From: Chloroflexota bacterium
GTDB lineage: Bacteria > Chloroflexota > Anaerolineae > CG2-30-64-16
Assembly (NCBI GenBank): GCA_026389845.1
Contig: JAPLHB010000130.1
Span: 1-64,000 of the forward strand
Length of the DNA stretch: 64,000 bases
Direction of reading: 5' to 3'
Positions within the stretch are counted from its first letter, which is position 1, and the number at the start of each line of letters is the position of its first letter. The notes below the pieces were generated by a model. That model was not told the DNA's origin, did no database searches, and saw only the letters and a list, made by a program, of their open reading frames with translations. The position numbers and the translations under genes were made by a program. Below are positions 13,847 through 63,289 of the stretch, in pieces.

Positions 13847-14524
13847 CTAACCACCCACGAACGACGGGACGTCCTCTAGCGAGGCCAGGCCTTCCCGCAG
13901 CGCATACAACGCGGCCTGCGTCCGGCTCGCCAGGTGCAGCTTGCTCAGGACGTTGCTGACGTGCGTGCTCACGGTCAGCTCGGCGATGACCAGCCTCTCG
14001 GAGATCTCGCGGTTGCTCAAGCCCTGAGCCACCAGGCGCAGCACTTCCAGCTCGCGGCCGGTGAGCGGATCGGTGGTGGGCGACGCCGCGGCGGGGTGCG
14101 CCATCTCGAAGAGCATCTTGCTGGCAATAGCCGGCTCCAGCGAAGGCTGGCCCCGGTAGACCTGGTGGATCGCCTGCACCAACTCATGCGGCCCGGAGTC
14201 CTTCAGCAGATACCCCAGCGCGCCGGCCTTGATCGCAGGGAAGACCTTGTCGTCGGCGGCGAAGCTGGTGAGCACCAGCACGCGCGTGCCCGGCAGCGCC
14301 GCCGTGATCTGACGCGTGGCCTCGATGCCATCCATCTTCGGCATCATCATGTCCATCAGCACCACGTCCGGCTGCAGCGCCCGCGCTTTGGCGACGGCAT
14401 CCGCCCCATCAGCGGCCTCGCCCACCACCTGGATATCCGGCTCCGTCGCCAACAGCGCGGCAATCCCTTTGCGGACAATGGCGTGATCGTCGGTAATCAA
14501 GACGCGAATGAGCGTAGATGGCAC
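13847..14524 (-). CDS. LuxR/NarL-type DNA-binding response regulator
   Basis: 225 residues. A receiver domain (phospho-acceptor in [15 protein letters not shown], switch Lys in GYLLKDSGP) is followed by a LuxR helix-turn-helix ([18 protein letters not shown], then [16 protein letters not shown]). It should bind promoters when phosphorylated. A GTG start at 14524 is used because AGGAGAC lies at proper spacing. The cognate kinase is very likely the HisKA_3 kinase at 15082-18462 on the same strand, from which it is now separated by repeats and a broken four-helix-bundle gene. Confidence 0.95.
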
Positions 14525-14545: not shown

Positions 14546-14684
14546 AGGGGAACTTTGGGGAACTCCGGGGAACTGCGGGGAACTCCGAATCTCCCTCAGT
14601 TCCCTCAAGTTCCCTCAGTTCCCTCAAGTTCCTCCCAGTTCCCTCAAGTTCCTCTCAGTTCCCTCAGTTCCCCCAAGTTCCCCG
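14546..14684. repeat. Array of 9-10-nt GGGAACT units in both orientations
   Basis: Four GGGGAACTNN units read on the plus strand (14546-14590), followed by about nine units of the reverse complement (AGTTCCCTCA and variants). The two halves can fold on each other. The array overlaps the 3' part of the four-helix-bundle ORF. A related array lies on the other side of that ORF at 15158-15233. Confidence 0.9.
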
Positions 14685-15148
14685 TCTTCGACCAGGTACA
14701 CCGCGCGCGCCTCCTTAACGCCGAAGCTCTTATCCCAATCCCCAGCCTGGCGCTTTTCTATCAGGCTGGCAATCAGACGCTCCAGCAGGTAAGTGGTATC
14801 GCTGTACTGTTCCAGCAGGTCGGCCAGCTTTGCACCTGCCACCAGTCCCCATCGCTCACAAGTCTGAATTTGACTGCCAAGCTCCCCGAGAGACCCGCGG
14901 GCGATCTCGCAGAAGCGAATGTAGTCTCCGAGCGCTGCCCGGCAGTACCCCTCCGCGATGTTGTCCTTGACAGACGATGCCGAGCCGCACATTTGATCCA
15001 GCAGACGATAGTACCCCGGCCCAAACCCCACCGTGATCTCATGCGCCATCGCCGCCAAATCATCCGCCTTCTACCACGCAATCAGCTTCTTGTAACCGTA
15101 CAACTTCTGAAACGTCTGCGTCTTCCCACCCTGATACTCCCGCGGCAT
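14624..15148 (-). pseudogene. Four-helix-bundle protein (23S rRNA intervening-sequence type), in-frame TAG
   Basis: Read from ATG at 15148, the frame gives 25 codons ending KLIAW, then TAG at 15071-15073, then continues KADDLAAMAHEITVGF. The family usually has LIAW-Gln-KA at this point, so a CAG to TAG change is the simple reading. The downstream part holds the family core SVKDNIAEGYCRAALGDYIR and GSLGELGSQ. The last 20 or so codons are made of the GGGAACT repeat array. Members of this family lie in 23S rRNA intervening sequences or free in the genome; their role is unknown. An internal start at 15058 could still give a shortened product. Confidence 0.8.
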
Positions 15149-18100
15149 CTTGCACCCCCTATGTTCCCAAGGTTTCCCCAAGTTCCCTCGCAGTTCCTCA
15201 GAGTTCCCCCAAGTTCCTCGCAGTTCCCCCACGCCACCCTCACCCGCGTCCCCTTCCCCGCCTCACTTGCCACCTCTAACTTCGCCCCGAGCCGCTGCGC
15301 ACGTTCGCGCAGGCCGCGCAAGCCCTGACCGCCCGCTTCGGCGGCGCTGACGGGATCGAACCCCACGCCGTCGTCGGCCACTTCCAGGCGCGCGAAGTCG
15401 GCGCCGAATGCCAGGGAGACGCTGACGTGTTGGGCGTGGGCGTGGCGCAGCACGTTATTCAGCGCTTCCTGGGCGATCTGGTAAAGCTCCTGTTGGACGG
15501 CCAGCGGCAGATTCTCCGTGCCTTCAACCCGCAGATCAGCCACCATGCCGCCGCGGCCTTCGACGGCCTTCAACCGAGCGCGCAACACTTCGGCCAGGCC
15601 GGTCTTCTCCAGGGCCGGCGGACGCAGCTCGAAGATGAGCAGGCGCATCTCGCGCAGCGCATCCTGCGAGGTATCGCGCAGCGAGCGCAGATGTTCCGCG
15701 GCGCGCGTCGTCTCGCCGGTCGTCAGCAGGCGGGCCGCGGCCTCGGCGTAGAGGGTCACACTGTAGAGTAACTGCGTCACCGAGTCGTGCAGATCGCGCG
15801 CCAGGCGGCTCCGCTCGGCCAACGCGGCCGTAGCTTCGGCTTGCTCGCGCAACCGGGCGCTTTCGATCGCCAGCGCGGCCTGGTTGCCGATGCCGAGGGC
15901 CAGTTGGGTCTCCTCCTCCGAAAAGACACGCGGTTCCCGATAATAGAAGGCAATCGCACCGTAGCCCGCATCCTTGACGACCAGCGGAACCGTCAGCACC
16001 GCGCGGAAACTCTCCACCAGCCGCTGGAGCTGGCCGCATTCCGCCTCGGTCGGCAGGCGTCCCCCCTGGTCATAGATGATCTGGCTACTGCGCGTGTCGG
16101 GCACGGCGACAGGCTGACGAGTTGCCAGGGCCTGGCCCGCCGCGCACAGCCCAGCCGGGATCCTCAGGGCGGCCACGTAGTCAGGATCCAGGCCGCACGA
16201 CGCCTGGATCGCTAACACCCCCTCCAGATCCTGCAATCGGAAGATGGACGCCGCATCGCTGCCCAGCAGCCGGCAGGATTGGTTGGCGATGTAATCCAGG
16301 GTCTCATCCAGCGATTGCCGGGAGTTGAGCACGGTCAGGATGCCGCGTAACCCCTCAGCCACCGCGCGGCGGCGTTCGGCCATGGCGTTGAGCGTCGTCA
16401 GTTGGGCAGTGCGCTCCTCGACACGACGTTCGAGAGTCTGGTAGGCCATCTGCAGCGCCGCCTGCGCCCGCTGATGCTCCAGCGCGTTGGCGAAGATCTC
16501 GCCGACGATCCGCAGCAGCGCGATGTCATCTTCGGGCCACGCCATCTCGGCCCGCACCGCATCGAAGCCCACAAAGCCGACCAGCGCCCCACGATAGGTC
16601 ATGGGAACGTTGACCAGCGAGCAAATCCCTGCGGTCTGGAACTGGCGCTGCTCGACCGCGGCCTCCGGCGGCAGGCTGGCGACCCGCGGGACGTGGACGG
16701 CCTCGAACCGCCGCAGCCGTTCCATCAGCCAGGGCAACGCGCCGACGGCAACATCCTTCAAGGCGGACGCGCAGGGCCGAATCCCGTCGGCGCACCACTC
16801 GTGGGTGTCGCGCAGAGTGGCCCCGTCTTCGGAGAACAAGAAGACGTAGCTGCGATCCACGCCGGCGAACTCGCCGATGGCCTGCAGCGCCCGATGAATG
16901 CCCGCGCCGATCGCGTCGGGCGCCAGGTTGATGAAATCGGTGGAGATGCCGGTGATAAGCTGCTCGAAGTTGAGCCGTCGCTGCAGCGCCTCATCGGCCT
17001 GCTTGCGCTCGGTGATGTCGGTATGCGAACCGGCCATGCGATAGGGCTGACCGGCCGCATCCCGCAGCACGATGCCGCGCGCCAGGATCCAGCGGTAGGA
17101 GCCATCCTTGTGCCGCAGGCGATGCTCGAGCTGGTAGATCGGCGTGCGACCCCGCAGATAGGCCTGCACCGTGTCCAGCGTGTGGGGGACGTCATCGGGA
17201 TGGGTGAGTTGTTGCCATACTTCGAACCGATTGGCGATCTCGTGATCTTCGTAGCCCAGCATGCTCTTCCAGCGCGGCGAGAAGTAGGTGTCGCCGGTGC
17301 GGATGTCCCAATCCCAGATGCCGTCGTTGGTTCCCTGCAAGACCAGCGCCAGGCGCTCCTCGCGCGCTTGCAGCTCAGTGTAGGAACGGGAAAGCTGTGC
17401 CGACATCCGGTTGAACTGCCGGATCAGCTCCTCCAGCTCGTCGCCGGTGGTCGCCTGGAGCGTCTGGCCAAATTTGCCGCCGGCGACCTCCTGGGCCGCG
17501 CCGATCAGGTCGGTGATCGGCTGCGTGATCCGGCGTGAGGCGACCGCGACGACTGCGGCCGGAATGAGAACGCCGAGCGCGAGCAGCAAGAAGAGGAACC
17601 GGCGGTAGGCTTCGCTGCCCGCCAGCAGCTTACCCCACTCGACCTCTGTGACCAGGCCCCACGGCGTCCCCGGCGCCGGCGCATAAGACGCCACGATGTC
17701 GCGGCCGGCCACGTCCCGCGTGCGCAGCGCGCCCGTCCGGCCGTTCGTCACCTCCCGCACCGCGTCCAGACCCGAGAAGTCTTCGCCGATCCGGTCGGCG
17801 TCGGCGTGGTAGATGACCTGACCGTTGTGATCCACCAAGTAGGCCGTCTCGCCCCCGCCCAGGCGCAGCTTGACGATGCTGCCATAGAACGCGCTGACGG
17901 TGGTGACGCCCACGCGGAACATGCCGGCAGCCAGCCCCCGGAACTCGCCCTGGCTGCCCATCATGGGCACGGCCACCACGATGACGGCCGCGCCGCCCGG
18001 CCCATCGCCCACGACGTCCGAGAAGAGGGAGCCGGGCGTGCGGGCCATCTGCCGGAAATATGGCCGCGCCGACCAATCCTGCCCCAGGATGTCGGGCCGC

Positions 18101-18462
18101 TCCGGTTCGGCGGCCGTGGCTGTGCCGTGGTTATCCAGCAGGACGACGCCGGCATCGAACACCACCAGGCGGTTGCTGGCCGCCTTGAGCGCCGCGCGTT
18201 GGGTCGCCGGAACGCCGCCATAGACATCGGGCAGCCGCGCCAGGGCCTCCAGCACGCCGGTGTATTCATCCAGCTCTCGCGCCAACTGACTGGCCGACAG
18301 CCGCGCGACCTCCTGGTTTTTCTGGATCACCAGGTCGCCGGTCACGCGGTTGTAAGCATAGAAACCGACCAACGCCACCGCGCCCAGGATGATCGCCGCG
18401 GGCACAAACGACCAGGCGATGATCTTGGTGCGCAGGCTGTTCCAACGGATACCGAAAAACAT
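15082..18462 (-). CDS. Sensor histidine kinase: Cache, HAMP, PAS, two GAF, HisKA_3
   Basis: About 1126 residues. Order: membrane helix (AWSFVPAAIILGAVALVGF), extracytoplasmic Cache-like domain (about 40-280), second helix, HAMP, PAS/PAC (about 375-500), two GAF domains (about 515-880), HisKA_3 dimerisation helix with the phospho-accepting His in RLARDLHDSVTQLLYSV, and HATPase (DDGVGFD, GQGLRGLRERA). The HisKA_3 type matches the LuxR-type regulator downstream. The final 49 residues come from the repeat array and a shifted reading of the next ORF, so the native stop near 15234 has been lost. The ATG at 18462 lies 11 bp after the solute-binding gene, suggesting co-transcription and ligand relay. 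Confidence 0.9.
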   Translation of the reverse strand: MFFGIRWNSLRTKIIAWSFVPAAIILGAVALVGFYAYNRVTGDLVIQKNQEVARLSASQLARELDEYTGVLEALARLPDVYGGVPATQRAALKAASNRLVVFDAGVVLLDNHGTATAAEPERPDILGQDWSARPYFRQMARTPGSLFSDVVGDGPGGAAVIVVAVPMMGSQGEFRGLAAGMFRVGVTTVSAFYGSIVKLRLGGGETAYLVDHNGQVIYHADADRIGEDFSGLDAVREVTNGRTGALRTRDVAGRDIVASYAPAPGTPWGLVTEVEWGKLLAGSEAYRRFLFLLLALGVLIPAAVVAVASRRITQPITDLIGAAQEVAGGKFGQTLQATTGDELEELIRQFNRMSAQLSRSYTELQAREERLALVLQGTNDGIWDWDIRTGDTYFSPRWKSMLGYEDHEIANRFEVWQQLTHPDDVPHTLDTVQAYLRGRTPIYQLEHRLRHKDGSYRWILARGIVLRDAAGQPYRMAGSHTDITERKQADEALQRRLNFEQLITGISTDFINLAPDAIGAGIHRALQAIGEFAGVDRSYVFLFSEDGATLRDTHEWCADGIRPCASALKDVAVGALPWLMERLRRFEAVHVPRVASLPPEAAVEQRQFQTAGICSLVNVPMTYRGALVGFVGFDAVRAEMAWPEDDIALLRIVGEIFANALEHQRAQAALQMAYQTLERRVEERTAQLTTLNAMAERRRAVAEGLRGILTVLNSRQSLDETLDYIANQSCRLLGSDAASIFRLQDLEGVLAIQASCGLDPDYVAALRIPAGLCAAGQALATRQPVAVPDTRSSQIIYDQGGRLPTEAECGQLQRLVESFRAVLTVPLVVKDAGYGAIAFYYREPRVFSEEETQLALGIGNQAALAIESARLREQAEATAALAERSRLARDLHDSVTQLLYSVTLYAEAAARLLTTGETTRAAEHLRSLRDTSQDALREMRLLIFELRPPALEKTGLAEVLRARLKAVEGRGGMVADLRVEGTENLPLAVQQELYQIAQEALNNVLRHAHAQHVSVSLAFGADFARLEVADDGVGFDPVSAAEAGGQGLRGLRERAQRLGAKLEVASEAGKGTRVRVAWGNCEELGGTLRNCEGTWGNLGNIGGARCRGSIRVGRRRRFRSCTVTRS
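15158..15233. repeat. Second GGGAACT-type repeat array
   Basis: Units such as AGTTCCCCCA and AGTTCCTCGC, matching those at 14546-14684. The array begins right after the last kinase codons that make sense (VRVAW) and replaces the kinase's own 3' end. With the first array it brackets the four-helix-bundle ORF. Confidence 0.88.
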
Positions 18463-18473
18463 GACGCTCTTGC

Positions 18474-19886
18474 CTATACCTGGCACGCCAGGCACGCGCC
18501 GCCCATCTTGTCGCCCCGCTGGGCTTCTTCGATCTGCCGGCTCACCGCCTTCATCTTCTCCACCGGCGCCTGACCCAGGGTGAGGATCTCCTGCCAGGCT
18601 GCGTTGGCAAGGCGGGCGGCGTCAGACATGTTGGGGAAGGTCTCGGCGACGACCGAGTAGCCCCTCAGGTGGCCGTCGGCGAAGGCGGCGATATCCACGT
18701 CCCGCGCCTTCTCCGGGTATTCGGCGCGGATGTAGCTCACCCAATCATCCACGATGGATGCCCGCGCGGGTTGCAGGAAGTGGGCACGCGCCATAGCCCG
18801 GCCGTAATCCTGGCTGATGAGGAACTTAAGCAGCTCCCAGGCGGCTTCGGGGTGCTTCGTGCCCGCAAAGATGCCGAAGCCGTCGGTGGTCGCCAGGGTG
18901 GCGCGGCGTGCGGGGCCGGCGGGGAACGACGCGACGCCGAACCGAAAGCTCGCGCTGGCGAGGATGTCCTTCAGCGCCCACGAGCCATCTTCGACCATCG
19001 CCAACTGCCCGGCGACGAACGCCTGGCGCGTGCCGATGTTCTGGATATCCAGCGCGGTCGGCATGACCTTGTCGTCCCACATCCGGGCGCGCAGCCATTC
19101 CAGGGCCTCCAAGGCCGGCGGCTCACCCATCAGACAGCGGGTTGGATCGGCCAGATCGGCAAAACGGCCGCCCCAGGCGTTGACGTGGACCTGGATGCGC
19201 TCCCAGCCGACGTCAATCATGCTGCCCCACAGATCAGTTTTGCCGTCGCCGTCCTGATCACGGGTCAGCCGCTTCATGGCGGCCAGGTAGGCGTCGTGAT
19301 CCCAGGAGGCGTCCGGGTAGGACACGCCGTAACGGTCGAAGATATCCTTGTTGTAGTAGAGCGCCAACGCGCCGTGATACTTCGGCAGGCCGTACTGCTT
19401 GCCGTCGGCCGTGAAGAAGGCGTGATATTGCGCTCGATCCCAGTCATCCAAAGTCGCGCGATCCAGATCAGCTTGCACGTAGGGACGCAGGTCAAGGGTG
19501 TAGCCCTTTTGCGCCCAGACCGGAAAGAAAGAGCAGCAGCCCGCGAAAACGTCGGCCATCGTGCCGGCCTGGAAGTCGGCCAACATCTTCTCCTCGAAGT
19601 TCTCCGAGGGCGGGTCAATCGTGTAGAAAACCTGGATGTTGGGATGGGTGGCGTGGAACTGGTCGAGCATCTGCCGAGCCATCGGCGGAAACCAGTCGGT
19701 GCGCCAATCCTGATAGACGAGTTGCGCCTTCTCGCCCTGGCCTTTGCGCTGGGCGGGCTGCGTCGAGGGGATGGACCCACATGCGGCCAGGGTTGCGCCT
19801 GCCGCAGCCGCCCCGGCCAGGTGGAGGAACCGACGACGGGAGAGCGGCGATCCCCCGGCACGTTGAGAGCTGCGGAATAAGTTCAT
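18474..19886 (-). CDS. Sugar-type ABC solute-binding lipoprotein (family 1), Tat signal
   Basis: 470 residues. A twin-arginine signal (LSRRRFLHLAGAA) runs into a lipobox (ATLAACG), so the mature protein is a lipid-anchored binding protein outside the membrane. The body is typical of family 1 sugar-binding proteins (ADGKQYGLPKYHGALALYYN, DGFGIFAGTKHPEAAWELLK). No permease or ATPase gene is adjacent; instead it runs directly into the Cache-type kinase. This arrangement suggests that it presents ligand to the kinase. The ATG at 19886 is chosen because the Tat signal follows it and GAGGG precedes it. Confidence 0.92.
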   Translation of the reverse strand: MNLFRSSQRAGGSPLSRRRFLHLAGAAAAGATLAACGSIPSTQPAQRKGQGEKAQLVYQDWRTDWFPPMARQMLDQFHATHPNIQVFYTIDPPSENFEEKMLADFQAGTMADVFAGCCSFFPVWAQKGYTLDLRPYVQADLDRATLDDWDRAQYHAFFTADGKQYGLPKYHGALALYYNKDIFDRYGVSYPDASWDHDAYLAAMKRLTRDQDGDGKTDLWGSMIDVGWERIQVHVNAWGGRFADLADPTRCLMGEPPALEALEWLRARMWDDKVMPTALDIQNIGTRQAFVAGQLAMVEDGSWALKDILASASFRFGVASFPAGPARRATLATTDGFGIFAGTKHPEAAWELLKFLISQDYGRAMARAHFLQPARASIVDDWVSYIRAEYPEKARDVDIAAFADGHLRGYSVVAETFPNMSDAARLANAAWQEILTLGQAPVEKMKAVSRQIEEAQRGDKMGGACLACQV

Positions 19887-22683: not shown

Positions 22684-22986
22684 GCGGGCTTGCCCCGGAC
22701 CTCGCGTTACGGCGTGAAACCAGCGAAGAATCTCCTTACATGCCGCGTTGAGACTCTTCGCTGGTGGCACGCCGCGGCCTACTGCTCGCTGTTAACCCGC
22801 TCAGAGTGACATGATGAGACTCTTCGCTGGTGGCACGCCGCGGCCTACTGCTCGCCGTTAACCCGCTCAGAGTGACATGATGAGACTCTTCGCTGGTGGC
22901 ACGCTGCGGCCTACTGCTCGCTGTTAACCCGCTCAGAGTGACATGATGAGACTCTTCGCTGGTGGCACGCCGCGGCCTACTGCTCA
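22673..22986. repeat. TGTCATTCTGAGCGGG repeat element, copy A, with 66-bp tandem amplification
   Basis: A full element at 22673-22811 starts TGTCATTCTGAGCGGG and ends CCCGCTCAGAGTGACA, with an inner inverted pair CAGCGAAGAATCTC / GAGACTCTTCGCTG. Its right half is then repeated with a 66-bp period from 22750, giving 3.6 copies up to 22986. Other copies lie at 55015 and 60761. Confidence 0.9.
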
Positions 22987-38966: not shown

Positions 38967-39928
38967 CCCACCACCATCCCCGCCAGAATCAGCCCGCACC
39001 CCAGCAGTTGGCGCGGCCCCAACGTTTCCCCGATCAACAGGAAGCTGAACAACGCGGCGAAGACCGGTTCGGCGGCGAAGATAAGCGCGGTGTGGGTCGT
39101 CGTGGTGAACCGTTGGGCCAGCGTTTGGATGCCGAACGCGGTCGAGGTCGCCAGCAGGCCGGTGAACGCGGCGGCGAAAAGAACGCTGCCGGTCAGCGGC
39201 GGTCGCTCGTCGAAGATCAACGCGGCGCCGGCGCTCAGAACCGCCACCACGATCACCTGGCCGAAAGTGAGCAGCAACGGATCATGGCGCGGGGAGAAGC
39301 GGCCCGTCAGCAAGATGTGGCCGGCGAAGGCCAGCGCGCAGCCGAACACCAGCAGGTCGCCGGGGCTGATCGAGAAGTCGGCCTGCAAGCTCAACAGCGC
39401 CAGCCCGACCGTGGCTGCCGCGACGCCCAACCAGGCATTCCACCGCGGCGCTTCACGCAGGAGCAGCGCGGCGACCACCGGCACGATCACCACCGACAAG
39501 CCGGTGATGAAGCCGGCTTTGGCGGGCGTGGTCAGGTGCAGGCCGGAGGTCTGGAAGCCGTAGCCGGCGAAGAGCGCCAGGCCGATAAGGAAAGAGGCAG
39601 CGGATACCCCGCCCCCAGCCCCTCCCCTGCGAGGGGAGGGGAGCGTCTCCCCCCCTTCCCTCGCAGGGAGGGGGGACGGGGGGGTAGGTCTCCGCCGCCA
39701 AGACACCAACGGCGCTAACGCCAGCGCGGCGAAGGTGAAGCGGATCGCCATGAAGCTGAAGACCGGATACGCCGCGACCGCGTCCTTGACCATCACGAAG
39801 GTGCTGCCCCAGATGGCGGTGACGGCAAGGAGCGCCAGGTCGGCGAGGAGGCGGCGGTGGGGACGTGCTGCGTGAAACGTGCTGCGTGACCACTCTCCGC
39901 GCAAGATGCTCCCCCAAGATTCACGCAT
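38945..39928 (-). CDS. EamA/DMT-family transporter
   Basis: About 327 residues with ten membrane helices in two EamA repeats (TAIWGSTFVMVKDAVAAYPV; later FAAEPVFAALFSFLLIGETL). It would export metabolites; substrate unknown. A Pro/Arg/Gly-rich stretch (RRRPTPPSPLPAREGGE) between helices 2 and 3 is a repeat insertion at 39606-39690. The annotated N terminus runs through CACG heptamers, so the real start is uncertain; the first helix (LLADLALLAVTAIWG) begins near 39840. Both ends of the frame therefore lie in repeats. Confidence 0.82.
   Translation of the reverse strand: MRESWGSILRGEWSRSTFHAARPHRRLLADLALLAVTAIWGSTFVMVKDAVAAYPVFSFMAIRFTFAALALAPLVSWRRRPTPPSPLPAREGGETLPSPRRGGAGGGVSAASFLIGLALFAGYGFQTSGLHLTTPAKAGFITGLSVVIVPVVAALLLREAPRWNAWLGVAAATVGLALLSLQADFSISPGDLLVFGCALAFAGHILLTGRFSPRHDPLLLTFGQVIVVAVLSAGAALIFDERPPLTGSVLFAAAFTGLLATSTAFGIQTLAQRFTTTTHTALIFAAEPVFAALFSFLLIGETLGPRQLLGCGLILAGMVVGEVRRET
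39606..39690. repeat. GC-rich inverted-repeat insertion in the EamA gene
   Basis: Contains CCTCCCCTGCGAGGGGAGG and CCTTCCCTCGCAGGGAGGG, two adjacent stem-loops. In frame within the transporter. Related sequence lies in the methyltransferase at 31903. Confidence 0.8.
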
Positions 39929-39955
39929 CACGCATCACGCATCACGCTTCACAAC
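39866..39955. repeat. CACG/GTGC heptamer cluster
   Basis: GTGATGC heptamers in tandem on the minus strand at 39916-39950 and looser copies at 39866-39892. They cover the 5' end of the EamA frame and the 3' end of the VWA gene. Confidence 0.75.
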
Positions 39956-42066: not shown

Positions 42067-42172
42067 GAAGCTGGAAACTGGAAGATTGGAGATTGGAGAT
42101 TGGAGATTGGAGATTGGAGATTGGAGATTGGAGATTGGAGATTGGAGATTGGAGATTGGAGATTAGAGATTG
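42067..42172. repeat. Heptamer array GGAGATT with flanking GGAAACT variants
   Basis: About a dozen tandem GGAGATT units, led by variants GAAGCTG, GAAACTG, GAAGATT. It fills the gap between the AAA subunit start and the nucleotidyltransferase stop. The same unit family, reversed, is inserted in rlmN at 50219. Confidence 0.93.
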
Positions 42173-42177
42173 GTGTG

Positions 42178-49706: not shown

Positions 49707-50876
49707 ATGTTCCAGTCCACTTCCTTGCTCGACCTCCCCCAGGACCAACTCGTGGCCCTCCTCGCCGGTTGGAATCAACCGCGCTACCGCGCGATCCAGG
49801 TATGGGACTGGCTCTACAAACAACTGGCGACCGATCCGGCGGAGATGACGAACCTGCCAAAGGAATTGCGAGAACGGCTGGCGGCCGAGGAGCGCATCAA
49901 CCCGCTGGCGCCAGTCTACGAACAGCGTTCGAGCGACGGCCAAACGATCAAATGGCTGTTTCGGCTGCCCGACGGGCTGACCATCGAGACCGTCCTGATG
50001 CTCTACGAAGAGCGGCGCACAGTTTGCATCAGCACCCAGGCCGGCTGCGCGATGGGCTGCGTCTTCTGCGCCACCGGGCAGGCGGGACTGGCGCGCAACC
50101 TGACCGCGGGGGAGATCGTGGCGCAGGTGTTGGCCGCGGCGCGGTGGCTGGCAATAATGGACGAACGACGAAGGACGAACGACGAACGGCGAAAAACGAA
50201 ACTTCGGATATCGGCCGCCAGCTTCCAGCTTCCAGTTTCCAGTTTCCAGTTTCCAGCTTCCAGCTTCCAACCTCCAACCTCCAACCACCTCACCAACGTC
50301 GTCGTCATGGGCATGGGCGAGCCGCTGGCGAACTACGACCGCACCTGGCAGGCGTTGCGAACGCTCACCGCCCCCGACGGCTTTGGCCTGGGCGCCCGCC
50401 ACATCACGGTATCCACGGTTGGGCTGGTTCCGGGCATCCGCAGCATGGCCGCGGAGCCGCTGCAGATCAACCTGGCGGTGAGCCTGCACGCGCCAAACGA
50501 CGCGCTCCGCACCCGCCTCGTGCCGATCAACCACCGCTATCCCATCGCTGAGGTGATGGCCGCGGTGCGGGACTACGTGACCCAGACGCACCGCCGCGTC
50601 ACCTTCGAGTACGCGCTGATGAGCGGGATCAACGACAGCCCGGCGGTTGCGCGCGAACTGGCGGCGCTCCTGCGCGGCTTGTTATGTCACGTTAACCTGA
50701 TCCCCCTCAATCCGGTCGCTGAGTCACCCTACCAGCCCACCTCCCCGGAGCATGCAGCCGGATTCCAGGTCATCCTGGAAAAGAGCGGCATTCCCGCCAC
50801 GCTGCGGCTGCGTCGCGGGATAGACATTGACGCCGGCTGCGGGCAGTTGCGGCGGCGTGTAGCGAATGGCGAATAG
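49707..50876 (+). CDS. rlmN: 23S rRNA/tRNA (adenine-C2)-methyltransferase RlmN, with in-frame repeat insert
   Basis: 389 residues. A radical SAM enzyme that methylates C2 of A2503 in 23S rRNA and A37 of some tRNAs. The cluster motif is [19 protein letters not shown]; the conserved [15 protein letters not shown] and [13 protein letters not shown] follow. Between them about 40 residues (rich in [11 protein letters not shown], then SFQ-type repeats) are encoded by heptamer arrays and are absent from normal RlmN of about 350 residues. The insert sits before a core strand, so it must loop out if the enzyme works. C-terminal [11 protein letters not shown] is intact. Confidence 0.93.
50158..50286 (+). 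repeat. Heptamer arrays inserted in rlmN
   Basis: First a run of heptamers ending CGAA (GGACGAA, CGACGAA, AAACGAA), then a run starting CCA (CCAGCTT, CCAGTTT, CCAACCT). The total keeps the reading frame. The second run is the reverse complement of the type found at 42067. Confidence 0.9.
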
Positions 50877-63107: not shown

Positions 63108-63289
63108 CACGTAACACGTAACACGCAGCACGTAACACGTAACACGCAGCACGTATCACGTAACACGCAGCACGTAACACGTAACACGCAGCACGTATCA
63201 CGTAACACGCAGCACGTAACACGTAACACGCAGCACGTATCACGTAACACGCAGCACGTATCACGCAGCACGTATCACGAAACACGCTC
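63108..63289 (+). repeat. 26 tandem CACGNNN heptamers upstream of nusB
   Basis: Exactly 26 consecutive heptamers, each starting CACG, fill 63108-63289. Types CACGTAA, CACGCAG and CACGTAT form 21-base triplets, and the triplets alternate to give an approximate 42-base period. The ATG of nusB begins at the next base. Inverted degenerate copies lie just upstream (63073-63104). Confidence 0.95.

Follow-up and report, generated by a model that had tools for sequence, protein, structure and literature searches.

The window analysed here is a stretch of 64,000 nucleotides from a Chloroflexota bacterium (contig JAPLHB010000130.1). Between a histidine kinase gene and a response regulator gene it holds a four-helix-bundle gene set among short tandem repeats, which is likely to be a degenerate member of a group of small mobile elements that have mirror-image arrays and an S23/IVP gene as their only gene. 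A preliminary description had suggested a small mobile unit at this one locus. The idea is supported but was understated, since the same package of gene and mirrored arrays recurs in many operons, with empty sites, and generalises far beyond the window.

The window locus

Read along the minus strand, the order is kinase, array, four-helix ORF, array in the same orientation, inverted array and regulator. The kinase gene (15082..18495, minus strand; dCache, HAMP, PAS, GAF, HisKA_3 and HATPase_c) and the gene for the LuxR-type response regulator (13847..14524, minus strand) were identified by profile matches. TRF finds three GGGAACT-type blocks: the left (5′, sense) arm at 15163..15231 on the minus strand, which reads inward; an inner array on the 3′ side at 14592..14682, also on the minus strand and oriented as the left arm; and the right (3′) outer arm at 14547..14587 on the plus strand, an inverted copy reading inward on the other strand. 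In the arm alignment the outermost two blocks are mirror images over about 36 bp (SW score 52), and the repeat period is approximately 10 bp. The earlier statement that the ORF lies between two GGGAACT arrays is thus right about the flanking and wrong about the number. The exact heptamer occurs 15 times in the window, 14 times within 14548-15228 and once elsewhere, against an expectation of 5.6, and none of 100 shuffles reached 15. Elsewhere in the window, a 66-bp tandem repeat (22749-22985; 3.6 copies, 97% matching) has no relation to the heptamer arrays.

The ORF (14624..15148, minus strand) matches PF05635 (S23) at 58.8 bits, where the cut-off is 33.8, and TIGR02436 ("23S rRNA intervening sequence") at 64 against a cut-off of 24, as expected from its proposed identity as an intervening-sequence-type four-helix bundle. 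PF05635 is the sole domain found in a profile search of the element, which detected no nuclease, transposase, reverse transcriptase (RT) or Y1 (HUH) protein. The full frame runs from an ATG at 15148 to a stop at 14624, and its C-terminus enters the inner array. The preliminary description needs correcting in one point, since an in-frame TAG at 15071-15073 (W*KA) interrupts this frame, so that, judged from the reading frame, this copy of the gene is probably inactive and degenerate.

The kinase frame also runs into an array, and the suggestion that the arrays enter both the ORF end and the kinase end therefore holds. Kinases of relatives end within a few residues of GKGTRVxV, whereas the window kinase, whose native end is near 15232, reads on across the array for about 50 codons and stops at 15082. 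The native stop has therefore been lost and replaced, as had been proposed. A search with the kinase identified three relatives in which a regulator 75-80% identical to that of the window directly follows the kinase, with a spacing of 10 bp in G004, about 60 bp in G002 and an overlap in G022. None of these three junctions contains an array or a four-helix gene. Such empty junctions had been named as a check on the claim that an insertion split the pair, and the claim passes it.

Mirrored arms across genomes and their presence and absence at single sites

Our survey covered 173 loci of the family, mainly from Chloroflexota (100) and Bacteroidota-type genomes (73); these phylum labels rest on named loci and on a reading of the window's own genes. 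For each locus we aligned the left flank with the right flank in reverse complement. Inverted arms scoring at least 36 are present in 69/100 Chloroflexota and 16/73 Bacteroidota-type loci, compared to 5/2739 control positions (2/379, 1/1180 and 2/1180 in three control sets). At a score of at least 30 the numbers are 82/100 and 36/73. Arms in Flavobacteriaceae are short and degenerate, with a 7-bp period still visible by eye in many, and consequently many of these loci fall under the threshold. Among 103 elements, the best-fitting array period is 7 or 14 in 69 and 8 in a further 22. Taken in the inward direction, the arms are G-rich in 88 elements against 11. Proteins of the S23/IVP family were found in 165/201 genomes sampled from one bacterial family; a phage collection that was searched contained no PF05635-family member.

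The window's genome has 14 PF05635 matches. In all ten of the genes L001-L010 the flanks match each other in inverted orientation, weakly in L001 and clearly in the other nine, and the unit differs from gene to gene (GAAGCTG, GACTAGG, GGATATT, CGTGGTG, GCAAATCG and others). Three more (L012-L014), in which PF05635 is followed by a zinc-ribbon-like tail, have no mirrored arms by the score used. It had been said that copies lacking such arrays at consistent borders would refute the proposal; in the main this condition does not hold, given the proportion of Chloroflexota loci with arms. The three genes without arms count against the proposal. L012, L013 and L014 are a second type of PF05635 gene, one or more of which stand beside restriction-modification-like genes, and degenerate GTCCGATCA-type repeats occur near them.

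Another four-helix gene with GGGAACT arrays was sought, and one was found: L097 in G009, a relative of the window element in a different genus and at an unrelated site, with AGGGAACT arms. The heptamer does not mark other copies in general, as each locus has its own unit, and GGGAACT was rejected as a mark of the family. The arms instead follow the lineage of the protein. The more similar two proteins are, the more similar are their arrays (Mantel test, 0/2000 permutations), and this also holds for pairs in unrelated surroundings (0.35 vs a baseline of 0.18; the pairs are not independent). At orthologous insertions an element's own two arms match better than cross arms do in 83% of 94 comparisons, indicating that left and right arms evolve in concert. 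At the fadB-4HB-fadA site across Flavobacteriaceae the arms vary between genomes, and left and right match within each.

Plasmids of Nostoc and Picosynechococcus provide pairs of filled and empty sites at approximately 90-95% identity, in which the element is precisely present or absent. In a Nostoc cluster of three genes, A-B-C, the A/B site is filled in pNsp_a, pC052_D and pNPM1 and empty in five other plasmids, and the B/C site is filled only in pNsp_c, by a clean insertion of 506 bp whose flanks share 93-95% identity. The TraM site carries the element in C052 and N. edaphicum and lacks it in C057; in pNsp_c the same site holds a gene-less array element. In Picosynechococcus, PCC 7003 has an element between cas10 and cmr3, and PCC 7002 has none. 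Sharp borders show a target duplication of 0-3 bp with no constant length. Borders at the TraM and cas10-cmr3 sites are blurred, host bases having been replaced locally there. In pNsp_c the right arm of the element is followed by about 37 extra bases (L299 1909-1945) ahead of the next start codon, which were possibly carried from a donor site.

In pNPM1 a four-helix ORF that is intact in two other plasmids is split by a 182-bp gene-less element that has the same TCAGRAG unit (L309 981-1162). The spacer of this nested element holds a GC-rich palindrome.

Gene-less arrays and placement in operons

Arrays of a 7-8 bp unit without a four-helix gene are abundant, with a density of 194 per Mb across the sampled sequence of the window's genome and of 169 per Mb in G047. 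Gene-less and gene-bearing copies have units in common: 48% of gene-less units in the window's genome match the arms of its own four-helix genes and 3% match those of the other genome, and in G047 the figures are 24% and 0%. Neighbouring gene-less arrays were inward-facing in 15 pairs and outward-facing in none.

Several examples lie in the window. A GACGAAC / CCAGCTT pair of the same class is in frame in rlmN (50160..50283, plus strand) with no four-helix gene; it adds about 40 residues that are missing from solved RlmN proteins. The others have no assigned strand. They are an inverted pair ACGTGCTGCGTGAA / TCACGCA (39863..39952), whose unit is common to four-helix elements L006 and L009; an AGATTGG array of 13 copies (42083..42173); a TGATTCGC array with the unit of four-helix element L008 from the same genome (58809..58845); and a CACGTAA/CACGCAG array of the L006/L009 unit family (63108..63286). 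In G039, an IS-type transposase gene is inserted in a GGGGTTG array (L130 3053-4728); four-helix element L027 of that genome has this unit too.

These arrays raise the question of whether the protein matters. The arrays might be mobile or self-expanding by themselves, through slippage hairpins, with the four-helix gene a passenger captured in the spacer and playing no part in movement. Gene-less arrays do far outnumber gene-bearing ones, the two arms of a gene-less pair can differ in unit, and one site is gene-less in one plasmid and gene-bearing in another (L314 vs L293). Against this, the unit follows the lineage of the protein even where contexts are unrelated, and 12 relatives without PF05635 had no gene-less arrays in 547 kb sampled, while 139 were found in 1376 kb of 12 gene-bearing relatives. 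They were present in 9/12 of the latter samples and three had none; the comparison is confounded by phylogeny, which was not corrected for. In addition, RAYT-like (Y1) and RT genes are not found within such arms: their flanks, examined in the same genomes, have no such arrays, and these genes are not supported as drivers of the arrays. We consider a passenger gene rather unlikely. The Y1 (RAYT-like) genes L264, L269 and L273 of the window's genome have REP-like palindromes on their flanks instead, which form a repeat system of their own.

Gene-bearing copies are placed mostly in operons. The upstream gene is co-directional with the four-helix gene at 160/171 callable loci, and both neighbours are at 139/166; the counts are ORF-based, and a few exceptions are calling errors. 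Sites include trpG-4HB-trpD, argE-4HB-argH and rfbB-4HB-rfbA (gene names read from translations), and cas10-4HB-cmr3 and cas6-4HB-cas4 in annotated plasmid operons. Antisense copies exist, for example L291 on a plasmid, and the sense bias may thus reflect retention of expressed copies rather than a preference at insertion. At several operon sites, fadBA in Flavobacteriaceae among them, the gene has long been in place and is passed on vertically, which implies that mobility is slow. A clean ancestral empty site was sought at trpG-trpD and was not found: sister species retain the left array only, or neither array, so the direction of change there is ambiguous. These loci (L213, L214 and L215) have a left AATAGAC array only, or nothing, together with a GATTCCTGCC...GCAGGAATGACA hairpin repeat.

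Such old, conserved operon positions would also suit an operator module, in which the four-helix protein binds the arrays to control its own expression or that of its operon, and the package is carried along only passively when DNA is exchanged. The arrays adjoin the ORF, and they have a conserved core with variable positions beyond chance (18/78 with z>2), as spaced binding sites would. This proposal does not account for the many gene-less arrays elsewhere, the in-frame insertion in rlmN, the nested insertion in a four-helix ORF or the precise empty sites. These require movement resembling transposition, and we regard a purely regulatory module as improbable.

Mechanism and relation to known systems

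We therefore return to a mobile element with a protein that acts on its ends, as the reading that we favour. Such an element would end in mirror-image arrays of a 7-8 bp repeat (about 10 bp in the window) and would insert near genes or between them. Operon copies in sense orientation would be expressed by read-through, and those copies would be retained. An array, a short spacer and an inverted array without the gene would constitute a miniature, non-autonomous form. The four-helix protein forms a homopentamer in a solved relative. Most likely it binds arrays of its own lineage and, together with host enzymes, helps them to spread. Its binding and mobilisation of the arrays are inferred, as is a scheme in which the pentamer recognises DNA and the host supplies the enzyme for cutting and joining. 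No direct movement of the element has been observed. The chemistry of insertion is not established, and no nuclease is recognised in the element.

Recognition could alternatively be at the RNA level, with the arms pairing in the transcript, RNase III excising the hairpin, and the RNA or its cDNA spreading with the help of a host RT, in the manner of Avd. The protein belongs to the same family as that of intervening sequences (IVS) and is related to Avd (PMC4990558, PMC10053308), and the strong sense bias in operons would fit. The RNA of the window element folds better than shuffled sequences (z -3.4), RTs are encoded in 6/6 genomes checked, and a copy in 23S rRNA carries the same arms. However, arm mismatches show no excess of G-U over A-C on the sense strand (137 vs 162, p=0.17), so there is no sign of selection for sense RNA pairing, an idea that was rejected on this test. 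The RTs are unlinked to the arrays, and the antisense copy L291 has good arms. Inverted arms read alike from both ends of the DNA, as terminal inverted repeats do, and this, together with the lack of a mismatch bias, favours recognition at the DNA level. The RNA route as known for IVS and Avd stays possible; we rate it as unlikely, though not negligible.

The closest known system is the IVS of 23S rRNA. That of Coxiella burnetii is 428 nt long, contains an S23 ORF and has at its ends a 28-bp stem that RNase III cleaves (PMC4990558); its length is close to the 417-506 bp of sharp Nostoc insertions. Both have a PF05635 protein, complementary ends and a sporadic distribution, and IVS have been called selfish (PMC4990558). 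The arms of the window element satisfy the requirement for complementary termini capable of forming a stem. In contrast, published IVS lie in rRNA genes and have a plain stem, while the elements here are mostly in mRNA operons, end in lineage-specific tandem arrays and have gene-less derivatives. The window copy is in a two-component operon and not in 23S rRNA, and L005 has no rRNA match. L301, on a plasmid of Azospirillum lipoferum, is a four-helix gene inside 23S rRNA (Rfam LSU) and has inverted 7-bp arrays (ACAGAGG/ACGGATG). Classical rRNA intervening sequences thus appear to belong to the same class of element.

REPIN/RAYT systems (PMC3116915) similarly have a gene between inverted repeats and, elsewhere in that genome, many short gene-less copies of the inverted-repeat sequence. 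The window's genome has this layout, of a repeat-flanked gene and dispersed gene-less inverted pairs, without the Y1 protein: the protein is Y1/HUH there and a four-helix bundle here, and the repeats are single palindromes there and tandem arrays here. Compared to a DNA transposon or MITE, terminal inverted repeats are present and an encoded transposase is absent. Avd of diversity-generating retroelements is a related four-helix-bundle protein (PMC10053308), but no RT, template repeat or variable repeat was seen at the window locus, and none of the four RT matches in the window's genome is on the window's contig (not all other four-helix loci were covered).

Heptamer arrays have been described as GGGAATC in Xanthomonas and GGGGA(C/T)T in Nostoc (PMC4692102), and as TAACTGA in Beggiatoaceae (PMC4679880). 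They also consist of 7-bp units in intergenic positions between aligned ORFs, and the approximately 70 convergent GGGAATC pairs per Xanthomonas genome (PMC4692102) fit the inward polarity found here. In those papers they were explained as G-quadruplex or regulatory repeats and were not tied to a protein (PMC4692102, PMC4679880). Xanthomonas campestris encodes a PF05635-family member (XCC0516, 2GSC), which is a homopentamer (PMC4990558), with five chains in the structure entry.

The preliminary description considered the unit to be new, and our literature search agrees with it to the extent that no paper was found that connects the PF05635 family with arrays of this kind (its scope excluded preprints and most subscription papers). 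The element is a new and wider form of a known selfish kind, the IVS, which works like REPIN/RAYT without its protein, and it seems to represent a class of very small mobile DNA that has gone unnoticed. A broader proposal is put forward tentatively, with slightly less than even confidence: that S23/IVP proteins are trans-acting factors of widespread transposase-free elements with lineage-specific arrays, that gene-less derivatives were the source of the known heptamer arrays in cyanobacteria, xanthomonads and other bacteria, and that rRNA intervening sequences are copies that landed in 23S genes. The heptamer arrays are a long-standing puzzle. The S23/IVP proteins are common and to our knowledge have no assigned function. 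Linking the two would give the proteins a testable function, the arrays an origin, and rRNA intervening sequences a home. If array-ended DNA is indeed moved by the protein with no known nuclease involved, this would be a new mechanism of movement.
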